Positions 171 to 19,465 of a stretch of DNA of 24,611 nt are shown here, one piece after another. How positions within the stretch are numbered: position 1 is the first letter of the stretch; every line of letters begins with the position of its first letter. The DNA comes from a virus: positions 1-24,611 of IMG/VR virus record IMGVR_UViG_3300036799_000061. The stretch is one strand, 5' to 3'. Under the pieces are notes generated by a model. The model did not search any database. It was not told where the DNA came from and saw nothing but the letters and a program-made list of their open reading frames with translations. A program made the translations under genes and the position numbers.

Positions 171-1133
171 CTAAGTATGCATTCCGACTATCACGCCTCG
201 AATTGTATCACTATCTCCATAGAATAGACTCGGTTCTGGGTACGACTCAAAAGAACATGTCTCGGCTACGGTTCTAAGTAAGAGCAATTGCTTTAGGTTG
301 AAGGACCCCTTCTCAGGGATCCCAGGTAGAGCGACAGCAGCGCCATCTGCTTCCGTTGCTTCTGTGGACATCTTATCTTTAGTGAAGTAGCATCTTTCGA
401 AGTCGTTTATAAATGGGAGCAGTTTTTCTAGATCCTTGAAGAAGCCGTGTGGGATTGGGGTCTTCCCACCTTCTTTGTTTAGGAGTTCAGCTACATTTGG
501 CCATTCAGTACTTAATAGTTGAGATCGCAGCCAACGCCCGCCAGGGAAATGGAACGTTACGCTCCCGCTTGAGGCTTGGATCTTTATAGGAGCATGTCCT
601 ATACGAAGCAGTTCGTTAACAGAATCAGCGGGGATGTTGATTTCAGGAAAAGCAACACCAATCCACTTTTCGATCAAAATGATGTTGTTGGTTGCAAAGG
701 CGCTTGGTCCTCTAAAGAGTACTCCACGAGCCCAAGGGCGAGAAGCATCTATGGCTATGAATGGCTGGAGGATCTCTAGAGCATCCATCAGTTTAGCGCC
801 ATCCATTTGAATCTCGGCACCTTCAGGTTCGATATTGGGATACTTTTCTTCTTGAGGAAGGCAAGGTACAAATACACTGAAATCTCCGCTCTGGACAGCT
901 AGACGCCCAGTTGGAGTCAAGTGCATTTGAACAGTACCTTCGCAAGACGAGATAGCTTTGATAAATAGATCTGCTCTAGGATTACATTCAAGGTTTAGAT
1001 CAATAGGACTACTTAGCGATATAGCTCCATTGTAGCCTTGAATAGTATGATCTTTAATCCTAAAGTGTTGGAGAGCCGGTACGAAGTCTTTCTTCGCGAT
1101 CGAACCCCTCACGAACTTTAAAGTTTCAATCAT
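171..1133 (-). CDS. DNA polymerase III beta-like sliding clamp
   Basis: This 320-residue protein resembles phage-encoded beta-type sliding clamps, which encircle DNA and tether polymerases and other enzymes to the replication fork. The recognition rests on overall pattern: an N-terminal segment with FVRGSIAKKDFVPALQHFRI, repeated strand-rich segments, and a mid-protein segment matching LxRIGHAPIKIQASSGSVTF. Its length is a little below the roughly 365 residues of cellular beta clamps, which is usual for phage versions. The start ATG overlaps the stop of the HNH gene (ATGA). No DNA polymerase is present in this window. DpdA, encoded three genes upstream, ends in a clamp-binding-like peptide. 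Confidence 0.72.
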   Translation of the reverse strand: MIETLKFVRGSIAKKDFVPALQHFRIKDHTIQGYNGAISLSSPIDLNLECNPRADLFIKAISSCEGTVQMHLTPTGRLAVQSGDFSVFVPCLPQEEKYPNIEPEGAEIQMDGAKLMDALEILQPFIAIDASRPWARGVLFRGPSAFATNNIILIEKWIGVAFPEINIPADSVNELLRIGHAPIKIQASSGSVTFHFPGGRWLRSQLLSTEWPNVAELLNKEGGKTPIPHGFFKDLEKLLPFINDFERCYFTKDKMSTEATEADGAAVALPGIPEKGSFNLKQLLLLRTVAETCSFESYPEPSLFYGDSDTIRGVIVGMHT

Positions 1134-1534
1134 TTAGAAATCCTGTATTGATATACTTTCTTAATCCAGTTTAAAAATTCGTCTTCTGAAAAAGTATTCT
1201 TTGCTATATTACATTGAAAACAACAAGGATTACAGTTTTCTAGAGTGTAACTTTTATTTGAATCGATTCTATCTATACCTACATCAACAGATCCACAATA
1301 GACACATATTTTAGAAACAAGACTACAAAATTGTTCAAAAGTTAAACTAAATTCTAAATTTCTCGATTTAGCACCTTTCTTACAATCTTTAAATTTACCT
1401 TTAAGAGTTAATCTATATTCTTTATTATATTGGTAAGACTTTTCTGAATTTTGTCTATAATATTTTTGATGGTACTTTTTACGATATTCTTCTGAATACG
1501 AAGATAACTCGTTTCCATTATCATCATATTCCAT
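1130..1534 (-). CDS. HNH endonuclease, probably homing type
   Basis: This 134-residue protein has an HNH nuclease core of the zinc-finger type: CVYC (77-80), GIDRID (86-91), then N100-C101 and CCFQCNIAK (104-112), so C77/C80 and C105/C108 form the zinc pairs. The N-terminal third is rich in Tyr, Lys and Arg, as in free-standing phage homing endonucleases of this group. The gene is clearly more AT-rich than its neighbours, which suggests recent acquisition. It sits between the SLOG gene (TAATG junction) and the clamp gene (ATGA junction) without disturbing either, so it is translated as part of the operon. Its target site is unknown. Confidence 0.85.
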   Translation of the reverse strand: MEYDDNGNELSSYSEEYRKKYHQKYYRQNSEKSYQYNKEYRLTLKGKFKDCKKGAKSRNLEFSLTFEQFCSLVSKICVYCGSVDVGIDRIDSNKSYTLENCNPCCFQCNIAKNTFSEDEFLNWIKKVYQYRISK

Positions 1535-1959
1535 TATCCCCTCGGGAGAATGTATACTTCTTTTTTCATGTGCTTAGCATATCTGATGGTACTCCATGTA
1601 CCAGATCTAAGTTTTTCGCCGTTAGTTCTCGGAGCGGCAATTAGAAGATTGCATGAATCAACAATAATCTTATTACGTTCGAGATATGGTCTAGGAAATT
1701 CAAGCCTAGAATATGTCTTGCAAAAAGCTCTAAGTTTATCTTGATCTGGAGGGTGAATTACAACTTTAAATCTGAATGTTAAAGCAATAGCGTGAGCTTC
1801 AGCATCTGCGCCTACGCAGTCTCCATGATGGAATTCTTCCCAGATAATTGCGTAAATTTGACTTTGTTTGGGTTCTTTTAGTTCTGTTAATTTACCATAG
1901 AGAGCTTGCTTTTGAAGTTCAGACATTCCAAATCGGGTTCCAGTAAATCCGACGTTCAT
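1534..1959 (-). CDS. SLOG-superfamily (DprA/YspA-like) nucleotide-binding protein
   Basis: The 141-residue protein has the Rossmann-like SLOG signature: GFTGTR (4-9), HHGDCVGADAEAH (44-56), a PYLERN segment (91-96), LLIAAP (105-110) and SGTWSTIRYA (119-128). SLOG proteins bind nucleotides or nucleotide-derived ligands; some (LOG family) cleave the N-glycosidic bond of nucleotides and others (DprA) bind DNA. The exact activity here is unknown. The start overlaps the dpdA stop (ATGA), placing it inside the 7-deazaguanine operon. A role in handling free bases or nucleotides for that pathway is only inference. Confidence 0.75.
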   Translation of the reverse strand: MNVGFTGTRFGMSELQKQALYGKLTELKEPKQSQIYAIIWEEFHHGDCVGADAEAHAIALTFRFKVVIHPPDQDKLRAFCKTYSRLEFPRPYLERNKIIVDSCNLLIAAPRTNGEKLRSGTWSTIRYAKHMKKEVYILPRG

Positions 1960-2876
1960 CCGAATAACCCCATTTGATCAAAAATGAACTTTGGATTTTC
2001 AGTATGAATTATCTTCCCGAGTTGATCATAAGCCCAGATGTTGTATGCCCATCTGCTTAGATATGTTTCCCTCATGCGTTGAAGATCAACACCGCATTCT
2101 GTTAATCGTTTCTCAATTGCTTCTCGTTGAATTGGAGGGAGTGTATCAATATGTCTCCATTCAATCTTACGGTTAGGTGATACATTAGATACTGAAACAA
2201 TGCGACCATCTAACAGCAACATACCACCAACCCGCGCAACTTGAACCCACGAAGATGAATCCACCGAATACCATGGGTACCTCTTCATCAAGTCTATTTG
2301 AGAGAGACCAAACCCGTGAACTCGTACTTTAGGGCGCCCTGCTCCGTCACATAAGTAACGCTCCCAGATACGGTCGAGCCAGTAAAAGAGCTGAGGCGTG
2401 CTAATCGGTACCATTCCTCCGATGGTGATATATTGATAATGACTGACATACCATTCAAGGTATCGTTCATCTTCACCGTAATGGAAGCATGGCAAGGGTC
2501 TGACACCAAGTTTCTCCATTGCTAGTTGGTTTTGATATGTAAGAAGAGGATCACCAATTCCATCAAGAACAGAAGCCACAAGAATACCATCGATAACTTC
2601 AATAATATCTATGTTCCTTTTGATGAAGTCGACATAGTTTTTGAGGTTAATTCTAGCGCCCTGCGTGTAAGCAGAAAAAGCACCAGAGTCCAGAAAAATT
2701 TTTCTGCCATCGTTTCTTATCGGATTAACTTTAGATTCTTTGTTGATGTAATGGAACGATTCTAGAAGATATGATACATTATCTCGTTGATACTTCTCAT
2801 AATCAGTGAGTCGATTGTAGAGATTGCTCCCTTTATGAAAATTTGCAGTATAAATTCCAGCTAGATAAAGTCTCAT
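1956..2876 (-). CDS. dpdA: DpdA-like 7-deazaguanine DNA transglycosylase
   Basis: This 306-residue protein belongs to the phage branch of the tRNA-guanine transglycosylase (TGT) fold, whose DpdA members exchange guanine in DNA for a 7-deazaguanine base. Visible motifs are FLDSGAFSA (61-69), FHYGED (131-136), IGGMVPIST (152-160), KVRVHGFG (183-190) and WYSVDSSSW (202-210). The tight CxCxxC zinc motif of tRNA-type TGT is not evident, as expected for DpdA. It lies downstream of folE, queD, queE and queC in the same operon, which makes the substrate. Start and stop are both in ATGA overlaps. The last residues are QMGLFG, matching the bacterial clamp-binding pentapeptide QxxLF. Which strand or sequence context is modified is unknown. 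Confidence 0.85.
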   Translation of the reverse strand: MRLYLAGIYTANFHKGSNLYNRLTDYEKYQRDNVSYLLESFHYINKESKVNPIRNDGRKIFLDSGAFSAYTQGARINLKNYVDFIKRNIDIIEVIDGILVASVLDGIGDPLLTYQNQLAMEKLGVRPLPCFHYGEDERYLEWYVSHYQYITIGGMVPISTPQLFYWLDRIWERYLCDGAGRPKVRVHGFGLSQIDLMKRYPWYSVDSSSWVQVARVGGMLLLDGRIVSVSNVSPNRKIEWRHIDTLPPIQREAIEKRLTECGVDLQRMRETYLSRWAYNIWAYDQLGKIIHTENPKFIFDQMGLFG

Positions 2877-3828: not shown

Positions 3829-4691
3829 TCTAAACCTTGGAAGAGGTTTGGCCAGCGCACAACGCAAAGCATCTTCCACTTGTTTGCGAACCTTTGCATT
3901 TCAGCATCTGCCAATAGATCACAACGTTCCTTAAACAGTTTCTTAAGAGCCATTGGATTGGTAGTCCAGATAAACGACGTCTCGCAAGAATGAGAAAGAT
4001 ACGAAGATGCACCTTCATAAATTCTCTTGCGTTCGAGACCTTTTGGTTCTTCTTGATTGTGAAGGTACTTGAATTGATCAACTTCGCGATCGATGAAGTC
4101 AGTGTAAGCGTCGTAGTTGACTTGCATTGCTTCTCTAAACTTCTGCGTCTCTACTTGGCTCCCATGAATCTTTGGGTGCACAACATAGAATCCGTAATGA
4201 TGAGTAAACCTTGTTGATTCTTGAGAAGGTGATCCTTCTTCGTCGCGATCCGCTCCTACATAGTTACGAATCAACTCATGAGATACGCGACGCGAAACTC
4301 CGGCGATGAAAAACGACATCTTTGCATGATATTGAATAGATGCGTGAGGAATGGGACCTTTTTGAGTAGTAGCGATATATTCTCTGTTCGTAGCTTTCTT
4401 GCCTTGCTCAGCAAATGAGTCATAGCACTTGCGCCCAGCAAGTTCTACGAGAAGTTCGTTCCCGCTAAGGTAGCGATCAGGTTCACTCATAGGAGATGCA
4501 AAAGCGTCTGAAGCTTCGAATCCACCATGAGGGAACAAATCAATCATTGATTCGATCCCATCAGCAGGAATGCAATTTGGCCTGTGGAGCTTAATCCACT
4601 CAGCCATCTTCATAATACCAGGTTGCTCGAGATTCATCTCAGCAATGCATTCAACGGTCGGCTGATAAACTAGAGTGATTTCTTTGCTCAT
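3825..4691 (-). CDS. thyX: flavin-dependent thymidylate synthase (ThyX-like)
   Basis: ThyX makes dTMP from dUMP using methylene-tetrahydrofolate and FAD. The 288-residue protein shows the family layout: a central SHELIRNYVGA segment (137-147), SPSQESTRF (154-162) matching the Ser/Gln-Glu-Ser-x-Arg core of the ThyX motif, and a C-terminal helix region with TNPMALKKLF and a following run rich in Ala, Glu and Arg. The usual RHR/RTR triplet reads RNY, and a short acidic insertion (DRDEEG, about 148-153) separates it from the SPSQES core, so the motif is atypical. Start overlaps the folE stop (ATGA). FolE could also serve folate supply for this enzyme, but that link is inferred. Confidence 0.82.
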   Translation of the reverse strand: MSKEITLVYQPTVECIAEMNLEQPGIMKMAEWIKLHRPNCIPADGIESMIDLFPHGGFEASDAFASPMSEPDRYLSGNELLVELAGRKCYDSFAEQGKKATNREYIATTQKGPIPHASIQYHAKMSFFIAGVSRRVSHELIRNYVGADRDEEGSPSQESTRFTHHYGFYVVHPKIHGSQVETQKFREAMQVNYDAYTDFIDREVDQFKYLHNQEEPKGLERKRIYEGASSYLSHSCETSFIWTTNPMALKKLFKERCDLLADAEMQRFANKWKMLCVVRWPNLFQGLE

Positions 4692-5404
4692 GGCGTACTC
4701 CTGTCAGCGAGATCTAGAAATTCTGAGCGAGCTTTTGCATCGGAGAATAGAACGCCTCTTAGAGCACTCGTGATCGTATGTTGGCCTTGTTTGCAAACTC
4801 CTCTCGACTCCATACAGAGATGGCGAGCTTTGATAAGAACACCTACTCCTTTAGGATTGAGATCTTCGCTATTCGCTAAAGCATCAGCGATCTGGTTTGT
4901 CATCCTCTCCTGAACTTGAAGCCTGCGTGAGAAGATTTCTGTAAGCCTCAGCAGTTTCGATAGTCCAAGTATGCGACCCTGAGGAATGTACGCTATTGTG
5001 GTTATACCGAAGAATGGCGCGAGATGATGTTCGCAATGAGAATAGAATGGGATATCTCGCTGAACAATCATTTCGTCGTAATCAATCTTTTCAAACGTCT
5101 TCATTACATCTTTTGGTTCTTGACTATAACCACAAGTCCATTCGTACCAGGCGCGGGCGACGCGAGCTGGCGTTTCTCTCAGCCCCTCGCGATTAGGATC
5201 TTCTCCTAGATGCTCCAATAGCTTACAGATAACAACTTCGAATTCTTCGTGGTCATGTTCGTTTACTGGTTTGTCTCTTTTCACAAGACCTGTGACGCTC
5301 CGAACGCTACAAGATTCACTCGATTGATTACTATGAATCCATTTTTGAGAAAATGGATCAAACCAACATTTAGTTCCACCGCAAGGTGCATTCTTTGGAA
5401 TCAT
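4688..5404 (-). CDS. folE: GTP cyclohydrolase I
   Basis: FolE converts GTP to dihydroneopterin triphosphate, the first step of both folate and 7-deazaguanine synthesis. Family motifs are clear: EDPNREGLRETPARVARAW, the zinc-binding HCEHHLAPF (C124, H126 region in this numbering), LGLSKLLRL, and HLCMESRG with the second Cys ligand, then HTITSALRG. The start at 5404 makes a TAATG overlap with queD. An in-frame ATG at 5434 would overlap queD by 31 bases and is less likely. The protein has an N-terminal extension of about 45 residues with Cys at 8, 13 and 32 that is not part of the catalytic domain. Confidence 0.93.
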   Translation of the reverse strand: MIPKNAPCGGTKCWFDPFSQKWIHSNQSSESCSVRSVTGLVKRDKPVNEHDHEEFEVVICKLLEHLGEDPNREGLRETPARVARAWYEWTCGYSQEPKDVMKTFEKIDYDEMIVQRDIPFYSHCEHHLAPFFGITTIAYIPQGRILGLSKLLRLTEIFSRRLQVQERMTNQIADALANSEDLNPKGVGVLIKARHLCMESRGVCKQGQHTITSALRGVLFSDAKARSEFLDLADRSTP

Positions 5405-5862
5405 TAAGACCTCTTGCGATAGGTTGCAGAACATTTTCTTGTTTCTTCAACGGTTACTTCAACGAGGCGAACTTGCGTATCATTGAGATGGCGAGGACCA
5501 ATTTCATCTACTAGATACTTAGCCATATTTTCTGCAGTAGGATTAAACGTTACGATACATGTTCCGTTACTATCGAGTTCTCTTAGTTGATTTAACCATG
5601 GGTCTTTAGACCAAACTAAGAATACATGATCCCAGTTTCGATCTAACCAATCGCAAAGTAGATTCTTGATATGAGAGAAATCGATAACTCGTCCAACTAA
5701 ATCTAAACCATCCTCGTTAGTTCTGATATTAGCATCTGAATCAACAGGTTCACAAACAAACCAGATGCGATAGTTATGCCCATGAAGATGTGCACAAGCT
5801 CCTTCATGTCCAACTACTCGATGACCCGCTGAGATATCATGATACCGTTTTACGCTAAACAT
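5404..5862 (-). CDS. queD: 6-carboxy-5,6,7,8-tetrahydropterin synthase
   Basis: QueD turns dihydroneopterin triphosphate into 6-carboxytetrahydropterin, step two of preQ0 synthesis. In the 152-residue protein the zinc ligands H14, H27 and H29 are visible (SAGHRV, HLHGHN) with the catalytic Cys C23 just before them. VIDFSHIK, NPTAENMA and the final EVTVEET also match the family. The start at 5862 is chosen because it forms TAATG with the queC stop; the ATG at 5889 would add nine residues overlapping queC. Confidence 0.93.
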   Translation of the reverse strand: MFSVKRYHDISAGHRVVGHEGACAHLHGHNYRIWFVCEPVDSDANIRTNEDGLDLVGRVIDFSHIKNLLCDWLDRNWDHVFLVWSKDPWLNQLRELDSNGTCIVTFNPTAENMAKYLVDEIGPRHLNDTQVRLVEVTVEETRKCSATYRKRS

Positions 5863-6725
5863 TAGAAGATTCTCGCACGTTCGAACCATGGACCAAGCAA
5901 TACCGAATTGGCTCCGAAATAGTTTGGCGTATCTGGTAGATGCATCTTTCCTTCTTTGTAGGCTCTCATGATCAAAGGATCAGGAACATTAGCTTCGATA
6001 AATCCCTTTGCTCTAAGAAGCGTAGCGTGATCGTGACCAACTGGAGGATATTCTCCATCGTAAGATGTATGAGTCCACTTCAGTGCTTCATAGCATCCGG
6101 GAAGATCTAGAGCCAACTTTACTGTGTCAGCCTTCTTAAGATCCATCAACGGGACTCGAATATGAATCATCTCTGATAAACTATAATCTCCGAACAACGC
6201 TTTGTTAGAAGCGATTTCAATTTCGTCGATAAACGATTGACGGCAATCAGGATATCCTCCGTAATCTTCTTCGCAAACTCCAGTGAAGATAGACAGGGCT
6301 TTCCTGTGTGCAGCTCTATTCATTGCGATTGTCAAGAACAATTGATTACGCATCGGAATGAACGTCTTTTCTAATCCTCCTGGAAGCGATTGGTGATCTT
6401 TATACTGCTCTAGAGGATTAGTCGATACGAGAGGAGAAGAACTGACAAGAATAGAAGGTCCTAGGTTGATGATTTCATGACTCTCGCATCCTGCGGCCAT
6501 TGCGATATGTTGGGCAGCCTCGATCTCCAGTTGATGCCGTTGTCCATAATTGAATGTAATCGCATGGATCTCGTATCCTGCGAACTTTGCGAAGTAAAGA
6601 CAAGTTGTTGAATCTTGGCCTCCCGACAATACAACGATCGCTTTGGCAGTCAAGGATCCTCCTAGAGGTAGTTTTGTGCGATACTTAGAAGAGAATAAGA
6701 TCTTCTTTTCTTCTTCTCTATTCAT
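5862..6725 (-). CDS. queC: 7-cyano-7-deazaguanine synthase QueC, lacking the zinc-site cysteines
   Basis: QueC uses ATP and ammonia to convert CDG to the amide ADG and then to the nitrile preQ0. The ATP-loop SGGQDS (34-39), FNYGQRH (58-64), YPDCR (158-162) and LRAKGF (237-242) identify the family. In most QueC proteins a four-Cys zinc site lies before LRAKGF. Here the aligned positions are S221, V229, D232 and T235, so none of the four Cys is kept, although surrounding residues are conserved. An N-terminal extension of about 26 residues precedes the first strand. The start overlaps the queE stop (ATGA). Whether it makes preQ0 or stops at ADG cannot be told from sequence. Confidence 0.9.
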   Translation of the reverse strand: MNREEEKKILFSSKYRTKLPLGGSLTAKAIVVLSGGQDSTTCLYFAKFAGYEIHAITFNYGQRHQLEIEAAQHIAMAAGCESHEIINLGPSILVSSSPLVSTNPLEQYKDHQSLPGGLEKTFIPMRNQLFLTIAMNRAAHRKALSIFTGVCEEDYGGYPDCRQSFIDEIEIASNKALFGDYSLSEMIHIRVPLMDLKKADTVKLALDLPGCYEALKWTHTSYDGEYPPVGHDHATLLRAKGFIEANVPDPLIMRAYKEGKMHLPDTPNYFGANSVLLGPWFERARIF

Positions 6726-7441
6726 TCAAGACCAATAATTTTCTGGGTTTGAAGACTGAGAGTGTATCCGAACTTCATGCAGCTATCAATAGCTGCTTTT
6801 AGATTGCGAGCATTCTCTAGGATCTCTTTGTCGTCTCGAGGCTGAACGTAGATGTATCCTTCTGGATCATAACCGTTATCTGGAGGGCGCGCGACGCGAT
6901 CGTGAGATTTTAGACCCAACGAGAATGTAGGTAATCCATCAGTTGGATCTACGTGATCAGCATCTAAGATGTACTTGAAATAGCTGATATGTTTTTCAAG
7001 ATCCTGATTTAACTTCGGAGTCTTTGGGCTGCATACGATTGAAAAGTATTCGTGTTCAAACGGAAGCCCAGGTAGATACAATGTTCCGTTGGTCTCGATC
7101 TGAATATGGAGTCCATGGTCTAGAAGTGTTTCGATCAATGGGACTATGTTTTGGCGTAAAGGTTCACCGCCGGTGATCACCACCAAACTGACACCATTGT
7201 ATTTCACCTTCTTTGTAAACTCTTTCACTTGATCAAGTATAGCTTGAGGAGTTTCGATCCCGCGCATGTTGGTATAGTCAGTATCGCAGTGAGGACACTG
7301 CAGATTGCAACCTGCAAGACGTATGAATATTGATGGGATCCCGGCGAATGGACCTTCGCCCTGAATCGTTGGGAACATATGATGTACATCGACTAAACCA
7401 TTAGGATCTAAAGATTGCTTCTCTGCTACTTGTAGGTTCAT
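6722..7441 (-). CDS. queE: 7-carboxy-7-deazaguanine synthase (radical SAM)
   Basis: QueE rearranges 6-carboxytetrahydropterin to 7-carboxy-7-deazaguanine (CDG). The 239-residue form has FPTIQGEGPFAG near the N-terminus, the radical-SAM cluster C45, C49, C52 (CNLQCPHC), ITGGEPL and a conserved ETNGT segment. The ATG at 7441 has a GGAG five bases upstream. A longer frame reaching 7549 would run through the terminator of the neighbouring gene and is rejected. It is the first gene of the modification operon, which continues by overlapping junctions to the left end of the window. Confidence 0.93.
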   Translation of the reverse strand: MNLQVAEKQSLDPNGLVDVHHMFPTIQGEGPFAGIPSIFIRLAGCNLQCPHCDTDYTNMRGIETPQAILDQVKEFTKKVKYNGVSLVVITGGEPLRQNIVPLIETLLDHGLHIQIETNGTLYLPGLPFEHEYFSIVCSPKTPKLNQDLEKHISYFKYILDADHVDPTDGLPTFSLGLKSHDRVARPPDNGYDPEGYIYVQPRDDKEILENARNLKAAIDSCMKFGYTLSLQTQKIIGLE

Positions 7442-7450
7442 AAGGACTCC

Positions 7451-7456
7451 ATTATA
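7451..7456 (-). promoter_or_regulatory. candidate -10 element for the queE operon
   Basis: A perfect TATAAT on the minus strand lies in the short gap between the upstream terminator and the queE start, 9 bases before the ATG. No good -35 box is seen at 16-18 bases, so it would be weak or activator-dependent. If used, the leader would be only about 2 bases long and the GGAG site would lie upstream of the transcript start. Confidence 0.4.
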
Positions 7457-7504
7457 TAGGAGTTCAAAGCATCTTAATAGATCATTGGAGATCCAAGAGC
7501 AATA

Positions 7505-7537
7505 AAAAAGGAGGCCGGGTTCTCCGACCTCCTTTCC
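7505..7537 (-). terminator. Rho-independent terminator
   Basis: On the minus strand a GC-rich stem (GGAGGTCGG paired with CCGGCCTCC, one G-T wobble, short AGAAC loop) is flanked by A residues and followed by TTTTTTATT. It lies 25 bases after the stop of the 7562-7981 gene and separates that gene from the queE operon. Confidence 0.85.
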
Positions 7538-7561
7538 TATTTGTTTCATGATGTAGTTTGG

Positions 7562-7981
7562 TTACGTGGTCGCTGCCGGCGTCGGAGCGCCAGTCGCAGC
7601 CGGCGTACCGGGAGCAGGCGTACCAGGAGCAGGCTGGGTCGTCACCTGCGGAGTCGGCATGGGTCGCGGCTCGGCCTTGAGCCCGTGGAACTTGCGCCAC
7701 CGACCATACTGCGTCGCGATCGTAGCCTCGTTCAGACCCTCTGCGGTTCCCTTCGCGATCACTTCCTTGCGAGTCGCCGCCCTCCCCGCAGCACGAGACT
7801 CTTCGTCGGAGATCGCCCAGACGCGACCCGTCTGCGTTCCATCCTTCGGACGCGTCACGCCATTCTGCTGGATCTTGGCCGCTTCGCGCCGAGCCTTCTC
7901 TTCGGCCTTCTGCTGAGCCTTGGTCTGCTGGACGGGCGGGGGAGTCTGAGGAGGCGCTGCGGTCGCGGTAGCTTCTGCCAT
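7562..7981 (-). CDS. putative DNA-binding protein with repeated VW-IADE module, strongly expressed
   Basis: The 139-residue protein has a Lys/Glu/Ala-rich helical N-terminus, a central domain (about residues 47-100: GRVWAISDE, ATRKEVI, AEGLNEATIATQYGRWRKF) and a Pro/Ala/Thr-rich C-terminal tail. The central domain recurs in the proteins at 10011-10778 and 11384-12103; its helical pattern suggests a helix-turn-helix-like fold, but no function is known. Codons are GC-rich, so other frames are also open; this one is chosen for its AAGGAG site seven bases before the ATG. A near-consensus promoter, a 5' hairpin and a terminator make it a one-gene unit that is probably highly expressed. Confidence 0.8.
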   Translation of the reverse strand: MAEATATAAPPQTPPPVQQTKAQQKAEEKARREAAKIQQNGVTRPKDGTQTGRVWAISDEESRAAGRAATRKEVIAKGTAEGLNEATIATQYGRWRKFHGLKAEPRPMPTPQVTTQPAPGTPAPGTPAATGAPTPAATT

Positions 7982-9923: not shown

Positions 9924-10129
9924 TGATGGGCCTTCTTTCTTAGATTGTTGAGAATCTTGTTTCGATGTGCAGCACAAAGAGGACTGCCACAAATGCAATC
10001 GATTACGAAGTTACACCTCCCAAGGTGGTTTGTATCTCTGCTGCACCGCTGGCCTGACTTTCTGCTGTGCGTTCCGCAAAGCGGCTGTTGTTTCAGCTGC
10101 GTGATTCTGTTCTCTTCTGAGTTGAGCAT
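9920..10129 (-). CDS. small Cys/His zinc-knuckle-like protein overlapping its neighbour
   Basis: A 69-residue protein with the order CGTHSRKSGQRC, HLGRC, CICGSPLCAAH, giving at least six Cys and three His in about 40 residues. The same CxxxxxxxGxxC...HxxxC layout begins the protein at 19477-20097. The only ATG (10129) makes it overlap the end of the 10011-10778 gene by 119 bases in another frame, which is unusually long for this genome. Either a real overlap exists or a non-ATG start inside is used. There is no clear ribosome binding site. Confidence 0.5.
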   Translation of the reverse strand: MLNSEENRITQLKQQPLCGTHSRKSGQRCSRDTNHLGRCNFVIDCICGSPLCAAHRNKILNNLRKKAHQ

Positions 10130-10778
10130 ATTGGACTGCGGCAGTACCTGGGTGTATGCCTGCTGCGATTGCGGCGGCGATTAGTTCCTGCCTTGTCTTG
10201 AACCCTTCTTTTTCAAGATCTAAATAGATCTTGCGAGTCTGTTCTACGATTCCACCACGTTTCGGCAGTTCAACGTCTGCTCCCGCAGCTTTTCGCCGCA
10301 AAAGTCTAGCGCGATAACGCTGAGTGGCTGCATTGTATTCTGATCCAATACTCTCGAGATAGTTAGCAAGTGATTCTGCTTGCGATGCTTTCTTCGCAAG
10401 AGTATGGGTCGATAGCAAGCCTGGGATCTTCTCGCGAGCCCATAGACCTAGCGCGTGGTGGAATGCTGAATCCTTTGTCTTTTGCAGCAGTTCGTTAACA
10501 ACTGATATAGATTCAGCTTTTAGGATCTTTTGCTTTTTCTCTTCAAGATGCCTTGTGATTGAAATCCCGATTCCCTTCCAAGCGATGATTTGAGTTTCTC
10601 TCGCCTGGCGTCCATGGCCTACGACTATGGTCTTCCAGTACCATGTTTGGATCTCTTCCTCGAGGAGAGATTCCTTTACCCCATAGTCCTTCCATAACTG
10701 GATCAAATATCGATCCAATTCCCTAACAGCCGCCTCCTTTGCCTCATCAAGTGGAGTGAATTGAATTACTTCACCCAC
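10011..10778 (-). CDS. putative DNA-binding protein with VW-IADE-type module and KPPW C-terminus
   Basis: About 255 residues, mostly helical and charged. Near the C-terminus is a domain (IVEQTRKIYLDLE, KTRQELIAAAIAAGI, TAAVQYAQLRREQ) related to that of the 7562-7981 and 11384-12103 proteins. The protein ends RYKPPWEV, similar to the KPPWQK end of the ssDNA-binding protein. A GTG at 10778 with AGGGG six bases upstream and an 8-base overlap with the previous stop is preferred; an ATG at 10811 is possible but lacks a ribosome binding site. The function is unknown. Confidence 0.68.
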   Translation of the reverse strand: MGEVIQFTPLDEAKEAAVRELDRYLIQLWKDYGVKESLLEEEIQTWYWKTIVVGHGRQARETQIIAWKGIGISITRHLEEKKQKILKAESISVVNELLQKTKDSAFHHALGLWAREKIPGLLSTHTLAKKASQAESLANYLESIGSEYNAATQRYRARLLRRKAAGADVELPKRGGIVEQTRKIYLDLEKEGFKTRQELIAAAIAAGIHPGTAAVQYAQLRREQNHAAETTAALRNAQQKVRPAVQQRYKPPWEV

Positions 10779-10980
10779 GCTTATCCCCTGAACCAGCCCA
10801 GTCAACTCCATGCATATGGGTGATATCGAGGAGGCGCGCTCTAGTGAGATCGACTTGAGGATCGGGGATGGGGGTCGGTAATCTACAGATACGAAGAAGC
10901 GTCCAGCCCATCGGGCCGTGAACGTAGATTACTCCGCGATTTTCATCAATCTCGAGCTGACAGCCATTTATCGTAATCAT
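10771..10980 (-). CDS. hypothetical 69-residue protein, leaderless
   Basis: No family is recognised; the sequence (INGCQLEIDENRGVIYVHG, then LLRICRLP) suggests a small beta-rich fold. The ATG lies only six bases after the -10 element of a good promoter (10987-11015), where transcription would begin at the A of the ATG, and no ribosome binding site precedes it. It is therefore probably translated from a leaderless mRNA. It is the first gene of the unit running to 8067. Confidence 0.62.
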   Translation of the reverse strand: MITINGCQLEIDENRGVIYVHGPMGWTLLRICRLPTPIPDPQVDLTRARLLDITHMHGVDWAGSGDKRG

Positions 10981-11383: not shown

Positions 11384-12103
11384 CTATCTCTTGTTAACTT
11401 GTGCTGCATGTTCGATCGATTCCCTCCGCGCTTGCAACCACTGCTGGTATTGAGTCCTTGCAGTGAAGTAAGCGATCCCGCGATTAACACAAGCAGCGAT
11501 AACATCGCGTCTTGGGACTTTGGGATTCTCCAACATCATTTCATCGGCGATGACCCAAACGGTCTTCGTTGGACTCTCGATCGTTGATCGCTTGGGATGC
11601 GGTATTTGCTCGCCGCGATGATTTGTGGTTTGCCTACGAACCTGATCTTGCTGATTCTGATAAGCACCATCTCTGATGTCTTGAACTTCTTTGTCCGAGA
11701 AGTGAGGATGATGTTTCTCTGGAGCGAATGGCGACATCTCGACAATATCGGCCGATTTGACGATGCCTTCTGCTTCCATCTCCTTTCGGATCGTAGGCGG
11801 AAGTTCATTCGCTTCCGGAGGTGTTGGTACTGATGTAGGCGCCGGGGCTGTAGCGATCGTAGCGTTTTCAGGAGTGAGCTCTCCGACTTCGTGTTGTTCT
11901 TCGGATTTTACTTCCTCCTTCGGCATTTCAGGTTCTTGACCAACATGGAGCTTTGCATTCGGAACAGCAACATACTGCTTGACGGTCCGGTAGGTGTAGC
12001 CTTTGGGCCCACCCACGATTTCATATTCACCCTCTTTTAGACCTTTCTTTTCAGCAGCTCTCGACGCATCACTCTTACGAGAGTAGTGATGATCCTTAGG
12101 CAT
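11384..12103 (-). CDS. protein with VW-IADE-type module and long charged linker
   Basis: The 239-residue protein has an N-terminal part with YEIVGGPKGYTYRTVKQYV, a Pro/Glu/Thr-rich low-complexity middle, a His-rich patch (EKHHPHFSDKEV) and a C-terminal domain (about 180-230: KTVWVIADE, PRRDVIAACVNRGI, TARTQYQQWLQARRE). That last domain is the clearest partner of the central domain in the 7562-7981 protein. The function is unknown; DNA binding is a guess. Its promoter is probably at 12168-12196, giving a leader of about 57 bases. Confidence 0.72.
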   Translation of the reverse strand: MPKDHHYSRKSDASRAAEKKGLKEGEYEIVGGPKGYTYRTVKQYVAVPNAKLHVGQEPEMPKEEVKSEEQHEVGELTPENATIATAPAPTSVPTPPEANELPPTIRKEMEAEGIVKSADIVEMSPFAPEKHHPHFSDKEVQDIRDGAYQNQQDQVRRQTTNHRGEQIPHPKRSTIESPTKTVWVIADEMMLENPKVPRRDVIAACVNRGIAYFTARTQYQQWLQARRESIEHAAQVNKR

Positions 12104-18457: not shown

Positions 18458-19465
18458 CTACGGAGCCGTATAGTAGAAGACGTTGATTCGCCAAATAACT
18501 CCTGAAGTTGCAGGAGCTGCGATCGTAGTTGCAGTTGCAACTGCCGTAGATTTTAGTGGCGATGTTAATTGGATATCAGTTTCGTACTGAGTACCGATTG
18601 CAGCAGCTGTTGGAGTCGTCCATGCCAAACTTCCAGGAAGATTCGCTGTAGTAACGTCTACTGGAGTTGCAACGCCTGTTCGAGCAGCTGCTGCGTAGGC
18701 AATGATATTAATTCTCGAGATGTAATGAAATTGTCCAGCAACGACAGGCAATGAAACAGTTAGAGCAACTCCTGAACCACTCTTTTGAGATTGAACTAGT
18801 GTTGCGGGTAAATGCGCAACCGTTCCGCTGATTGATTGAGTTGCCGGAAAGTTGTTAACTCCGACTGTTCCAGAAACTGGTTGTGTAGCAGGGAAGTTAT
18901 TGATCCCGACAGTTCCTGATACGGGTTGTATGGCTGGGAATGCTCCAGCTCTGGTCGATAATGCTACATCAAGATTGTCGGTACGTGCTTTGATTGCAGC
19001 AAGCGTTGCTTCGGTTGAAGCACCGGTTGGGAGCGGTTGAGATGCTAACGATACAGGCTGCGTTGCTGGATAGAATGCTCCAGTTACTGCTTGTGATGAT
19101 GGGAAATTACTGATCGCTACAGATCCCGATATAGACTGGACATCGGTAGGCTTAGTTCTTGACGAAAGCGGGATATCAAGGTTATCGGTCCTAATCCTGA
19201 TAAGATCCAGAGCTTCACTAACTAGAGTAAGTGTATCTTCCGAAGCCAAACCAAGAGGTAGCTGTACCGGAACGGGCGCAGCTCTCAACTCAGCATCAGT
19301 TAATGCTCCTGTTGATGTCCCAGGAGCCGGAGCAGGGGCAGGAGCAGCTGAACTGTTGACTCGTAGATTCCCATTAAGATCTACCGACAGCCAAACTAGT
19401 TCTCCTTCTTGATACTGAGGAGAACCAGAAGACGCCTGAGCAACCGTTTGAGATGACCCTGCCAC
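18458..19465 (-). CDS. repetitive structural-type protein (possible virion protein)
   Basis: The 335-residue protein starts with GTG, seven bases after a strong AGGAGG. After an Ala/Pro-rich linker it contains two copies of an RTDNLD-LS-R unit (about residues 90 and 165) and several copies of a QPVSGTVGV/NNFPATQ repeat in the middle, then a Ser/Thr/Ala-rich beta-type C-terminal domain ending FYYTAP. Repeats like this occur in phage tail, decoration or fibre-like proteins. Its place in the middle of replication and recombination genes is unexpected. No enzyme motif is seen. Confidence 0.68.
   Translation of the reverse strand: MAGSSQTVAQASSGSPQYQEGELVWLSVDLNGNLRVNSSAAPAPAPAPGTSTGALTDAELRAAPVPVQLPLGLASEDTLTLVSEALDLIRIRTDNLDIPLSSRTKPTDVQSISGSVAISNFPSSQAVTGAFYPATQPVSLASQPLPTGASTEATLAAIKARTDNLDVALSTRAGAFPAIQPVSGTVGINNFPATQPVSGTVGVNNFPATQSISGTVAHLPATLVQSQKSGSGVALTVSLPVVAGQFHYISRINIIAYAAAARTGVATPVDVTTANLPGSLAWTTPTAAAIGTQYETDIQLTSPLKSTAVATATTIAAPATSGVIWRINVFYYTAP

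Follow-up and report, generated by a model that had tools for sequence, protein, structure and literature searches.

The DpdA-like protein encoded in the window, i.e., in the whole stretch of 24,611 nucleotides of the IMG/VR virus record IMGVR_UViG_3300036799_000061 analysed here, ends in a peptide which fits the bacterial clamp-binding motif. Shown are the peptide, its conservation, its flexible position, the beta-clamp fold of the product of a gene further downstream, the conservation of most of the peptide pocket of this clamp, and the co-directional linkage of the two genes. That the DpdA tail binds the phage clamp is a likely inference, reached without binding data and without a model of the complex.

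The dpdA gene and its neighbours

The dpdA gene (1956..2876, minus strand) codes for a TGT-like DNA guanine transglycosylase of 306 aa. It reads from 2876 to 1956; the plus strand has no open frame at this place. The protein matches phrog_887 (queuine tRNA-ribosyltransferase) over residues 1-290 with an E-value of 3.3e-76. Its AlphaFold model (pLDDT 94.9) finds tRNA-guanine transglycosylases of the PDB as fold matches, archaeosine TGT 1j2b (Foldseek E 8e-6) and further TGTs among them. D63 and D206 are invariant across 22 diverse homologs and are inferred to be catalytic. Relatives of DpdA are present in 231 phage records. Membership in the DpdA family of the bacterial dpd defence system (NF041059) was rejected, the score of 23.5 bits being below the NCBIfam cut-off of 200. 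Sequence searches of the PDB for relatives of DpdA and of the clamp returned nothing useful; the fold search succeeded. In all likelihood the window protein is a phage DpdA of the phrog_887 type, with DNA base exchange by this protein being inferred.

Genes of the preQ0 pathway are located near dpdA on the same strand. FolE (GTP cyclohydrolase I, 4688..5434, minus; PF01227, E 4e-68), QueD (5404..5889, minus; PF01242, E 6e-23) and the preQ0 synthase QueC (5862..6725, minus; PF06508, E 2e-52) were identified by Pfam. A QueE-like radical SAM enzyme of the pathway (6722..7549, minus) was assigned by ORF position, sequence and relatives: a search with it returned 72 relatives from the loci, at the place annotated as QueE in related phages. 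ThyX, also on the minus strand, is listed between the preQ0 genes and dpdA.

Downstream, the stop codon of dpdA is overlapped (ATGA) by a DprA/SLOG-like gene (1534..1959, minus; phrog_289), for which the Pfam match to DNA_processg_A (E 0.001) is under the curated cut-off. An endonuclease VII-like/HNH gene follows (1130..1534, minus; phrog_1035, E 2e-20), and the third gene downstream of dpdA encodes a beta-type sliding clamp of 320 aa (171..1133, minus). Overlaps of 4-5 bases (ATGA, TAATG, ATGA) join these four genes, and a single transcript from dpdA to the clamp gene is plausible on these overlaps, an inference from sequence alone for which RNA data are lacking. A scan of the window for promoters and terminators returned sites no more common than in shuffled sequence. 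The initial annotation had named a DpdA, a clamp three genes downstream and a shared transcript. The first held by the phrog_887 profile and the TGT-like fold, the second held as well, and the third held as far as sequence can show.

Several observations on other proteins are recorded here in their own right. Three proteins of unknown function in the window (7562-7981, 10011-10811 and 11384-12103, all minus) possess similar short, helical-looking ends, e.g., ...ISDEESRAAGRAATRKEVIAKG... and ...IADEMMLENPKVPRRDVIAAC...; the first and the third share a match to phrog_7864. A protein of 335 aa (18458-19465, minus) consists in part of repeated INNFPATQPVSGTVG-like units and has no Pfam or PHROG match. 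In related loci some QueC proteins carry an N-terminal QLELF (MSEQQLELFEGERK, MTQQLELFKK; L037:1679-2530, L026:5821-6672, L006:552-1358), which is the full clamp-binding consensus, and others have QADLPL (L013) or QQELDL (L101). In the N-terminal region of FolE, SEQDELF or QDGLF occurs (L015:6411-7133, L017:5934-6821), the start codons being mechanical picks.

Conservation and specificity of the C-terminal peptide

The C-terminus of DpdA reads ...NPKFIFDQMGLFG, with DQMGLFG as the last residues and the hexapeptide QMGLFG encoded at 1959..1976 (minus). QMGLF fits the bacterial clamp-binding motif with Q at position 1, L or M at position 4 and an aromatic or hydrophobic residue at position 5. 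Nearly all of 36 IMG/VR relatives with 47-69% identity have a QxxLF-like end past an unconserved linker. For a broader view, the IMG/VR relatives were combined with loci of named phages and as many as 80 additional contigs; these 129 sequences were reduced to 56 representatives with pairwise identities <70%. Position 4 is L in 53/56 and F in the other 3/56, position 5 is F in 54/56, and the LF pair as such is present in 51/56. Q1 is found in 37 of the 56 representatives, and D or E directly precedes the motif in 28. The entropy is 0.30 bits at position 4 and 0.26 bits at position 5 versus a mean of 1.52 bits over DpdA residues 1-290. Unlike the tail, the 15-20 residues ahead of it are not conserved: most of the 15 positions before the motif exceed 3 bits, and the motif follows a conserved R-x-x-x-N helix at a distance of anywhere between 19 and 26 residues. 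An exception in this stretch is F297, four residues ahead of the motif, where Phe is kept in 47/56 representatives. In one relative (L090) the protein extends past the motif, and QPQLF is still kept. The most distant motif-bearing DpdA with a clamp nearby is that of Streptococcus phage Dp-1 (28% identity), which ends in RQRRLF, the third gene downstream coding for DnaN. For the DpdAs from Dp-1, Saguaro and phi47:1, scans returned few relatives or none.

In a large clade, the Queuovirinae branch, Q1 is usually replaced and the tail reads [IV]QELF or VMELF. This weakens the strict motif match and must be counted against the proposal. The clamp loader subunit delta, with AMSLF, sets a precedent for clamp binding in the absence of Q1, and LF is able to bind by itself (PMC11139829). 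The terminal QMGLFG with its fit to the clamp motif, as first noted, is confirmed and strengthened by these comparative data. The strict QxxLF held only in part; what is robust is xxxLF, with a preference for Q1. A lack of conservation in close homologs had been set beforehand as an outcome that would refute the idea. This comparison was run and did not refute it, the tail being one of the best-conserved regions of DpdA.

The AlphaFold model predicts that the motif sits at a flexible C-terminus: residues 301-306 form a coil after the last helix with a pLDDT of 60, while the pLDDT is still 87 at residues 291-300. These values bear on a different reading, in which the hydrophobic tail docks on DpdA itself (a dimer partner or the core) or on a different protein of the replisome, e.g., the neighbouring polymerase, the likeness to a clamp motif being convergent. 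In its favour, F297 is kept in 47/56 and the model is confident at 291-300, so that some of the tail lies packed against the body; also, Q1 is not strict. Against it stand the low confidence of the last six residues, a linker which varies in length and sequence, the tolerance for extensions beyond LF, and the favoured Q1, which self-docking does not predict. We regard this reading as very unlikely.

The peptide is specific for DpdA. The ORFs of 91 loci were called mechanically; 46/85 DpdAs versus 0/1351 other ORFs have Q..LF in their final 8 residues, and LF in the final six is found in 78/85 versus 10/1351. A chance origin of the tail is thus rejected (46/85 versus 0/1351; Fisher p ~1e-63, or ~1e-53 with the 56 representatives; both nominal, as the sequences are related). 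Nearly complete searches of five other phages gave DpdA alone as an ORF ending in QxxLF or an [IV]QELF-like peptide, with one exception, the 9g tail assembly chaperone ending in QDSLFF, which we take to be chance level; beyond this, only a few weak or structural-gene matches were seen. The C-termini of the polymerases in the relatives have no QxxLF. As a separate observation, an internal QLSLL or QLALL around residue ~450 is shared by the polymerases of L041, L054, L059 and other annotated Queuovirinae loci.

Could the conserved end be due to chance, or to a constraint on the nucleotides imposed by the next gene through its ribosome-binding site or an overlap with its start? In support, the end of dpdA overlaps the next start in 33/56 representatives, and 24 of these 33 have a Shine-Dalgarno-like run inside the motif codons or immediately ahead of them. 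The ribosome-binding site of the neighbour thereby accounts in part for G/E at position 3. Yet all six Leu codons are used at position 4 and both Phe codons for the Phe, and six Leu codons in use therefore point to selection on the protein, which largely refutes this explanation. LF is also kept without any overlap in 9g and in two further loci (L068 and L079), and the purine run excludes Q1, L4 and F5. The anchors L and F are not explained by the Shine-Dalgarno-like run. Judged by codon use, nucleotide constraint is ruled out for L and F, and for part of the middle residues it is accepted; as an account of the conserved end it is all but excluded.

The phage clamp, its pocket and its linkage to dpdA

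The clamp gene matches phrog_947 'DNA polymerase processivity factor' with an E-value of 4e-64. The model of its product (pLDDT 93.1) aligns with bacterial beta clamps in Foldseek (E 9e-21, TM 0.84), and the top PDB entries include peptide complexes, e.g., with AcQADLF. A comparison with E. coli DnaN by hhalign gave E 1.4e-7; a search for the Pfam DNA polymerase III beta domains found no family at E <= 0.01. By its predicted fold the gene product is a beta clamp; ring formation and loading on DNA are inferred.

The peptide-pocket residues, as listed in PMC11139829, were compared in a set of 46 phage clamps. Positions equivalent to R152, T172, L177, P242 and V247 are invariant or mostly conservatively changed, and those equivalent to V360, M362, M364 and R365 are kept or mostly conservatively replaced. 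The C-terminal V-V-M-P-M-R corresponds to V-I-V-G-M-H in the window clamp and usually to A-I-[VI]-G-M-R in other phage clamps. Subsite II is less well kept: H175 is replaced by I/V and P363 by G, and N320 and Y323 are unaligned. The equivalent of G174 is N. Residues 152-247 were mapped by hhalign; in MAFFT the 172-177 loop is displaced by two residues. For the pocket residues at the C-terminus the mapping relies on MAFFT alone. From these alignments we infer that most of the pocket is kept and that subsite I, which holds LF, is better preserved than subsite II, which holds Q. The looser Q1 of the DpdA tails fits this weaker conservation of the pocket part holding Q. Covariation of the Q1 state with clamp columns was not used as evidence since the highest-ranking columns should mirror phylogeny; they are mostly outside the pocket, with A135 (equivalent to L155) ranking 12th of 320.

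The genes for DpdA and clamp are co-directional in 77/77 loci in which both were found, and in 69 of these 77 they are within 600 bp. Annotated genomes mostly show the order FolE, DpdA, clamp, DNA polymerase; possibly the clamp gene merely adjoins its polymerase within a shared replication block, which counts against the proposal. All 20 main-group contigs >40 kb that were searched contain a clamp.

Outside the main group, Cellulophaga phage phi47:1 and L231 have a clamp without a clean motif, and the actinophages Saguaro and Finch have neither. Short DpdAs of the AB3P2 type (~240-249 aa) bear motif-like tails (DQQCLF, QLCIFGG, QDGLF, QETLL), and a phage clamp was not found in the AB3P2 record and in 9 of 11 searched relatives, with two weak partial matches. 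Distant DpdAs hence break the co-occurrence of tail and clamp both ways. The expectation that a C-terminal QxxLF accompanies a phage-encoded clamp is met inside the main DpdA group and imperfectly outside (phi47:1, AB3P2-type). As a side observation, short DpdA-like proteins (~245 aa) with clamp-motif-like C-termini form a large family (L062:1866-2597 and L151-L230).

For the AB3P2-type tails, use of the host clamp is conceivable. Extended to all DpdAs, this becomes a rival reading: the tail would bind the host beta clamp instead of or besides the phage clamp and recruit DpdA to any replicating DNA. Its support comes from these motif-like tails, mostly without a phage clamp, and from the fact that the same peptides are bound by beta clamps of different species (PMC11139829). 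Against it, dpdA of the main group is tightly linked to the phage clamp gene, present in 20/20 tested contigs. We deem a host-clamp function unlikely; which clamp DpdA binds is nevertheless an inference.

Proposed mechanism, precedents and implications

In the preferred reading, DpdA terminates in a clamp-binding peptide that is held on a flexible tether. LF would anchor in subsite I, the hydrophobic pocket of the phage-encoded clamp, and Q1, where present, would make additional contacts with subsite II. Being loaded at primer ends and remaining on the new duplex, the clamp would retain DpdA on fresh phage DNA. The exchange of guanine for preQ0 would then trail replication, and new duplex would be modified soon after its synthesis by a DpdA held on the clamp behind the polymerase. 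As a whole this account is likely, with binding and coupling inferred. Binding and fork coupling, as proposed in the initial annotation, are supported by conservation, fold, pocket and linkage, and both remain inferences; for a functional coupling of modification to replication the balance tips only slightly in favour.

The DpdAs of phages 9g and CAjan (Hutinet et al. 2019, PMC6884629) resemble that of the window: they belong to phrog_887, have a TGT-like fold and a FolE-QueD-QueC-QueE neighbourhood, with clamp and polymerase adjoining. Their tails, RLQDLFDE and VMELF, respectively, have no Q1, unlike QMGLF of the window. In the text of this main DpdA phage paper 'clamp' and 'processivity' have zero occurrences. 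For the peptide itself the closest parallel is E. coli Pol II, whose C-terminal QLGLF is near-identical to QMGLF: a pentapeptide at a flexible C-terminus with Q, an aliphatic residue, x, L and F. The QLGLF peptide binds with a KD of 1.7 uM (PMC11139829). The nearest precedent for a phage DNA modifier which binds the phage's own clamp is T4 alpha-glucosyltransferase with gp45 (Sommer 2004; PMC13216743); it differs in that the reaction is glucosylation and not base exchange, and in the T4-type clamp. The interaction of alpha-glucosyltransferase with the clamp is not the main determinant of the modification level (PMC13216743), and because of this, caution on function is warranted even if binding by DpdA is real.

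In its passages bearing on clamp clients, PMC11139829 names polymerases, the clamp loader, ligase, Hda and mismatch repair, and an enzyme of base exchange is not among them. We found no paper connecting DpdA with a clamp in the literature searched; most subscription journals were outside its scope and this is not proof of absence. What is new, and well supported short of binding data, is a probable clamp client from an enzyme class not linked to clamps in the searched literature. A bolder reading, in which the clamp is a travelling workbench where in some phages the preQ0-making enzymes dock too, is unlikely; it draws on the QLELF of QueC (L006, L026, L037) and on QDELF or QDGLF of FolE (L015, L017). 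If true, both the synthesis of preQ0 and its insertion could take place at the fork.

How do 7-deazaguanine phages modify new genomes fast enough to escape restriction, and why are only some guanines replaced? A clamp-tethered DpdA is a simple candidate mechanism for both questions. If true, the list of bacterial clamp clients would gain base-exchange enzymes, and clamp tethering of phage DNA modification would have arisen with an unrelated chemistry and a different clamp type than in T4.
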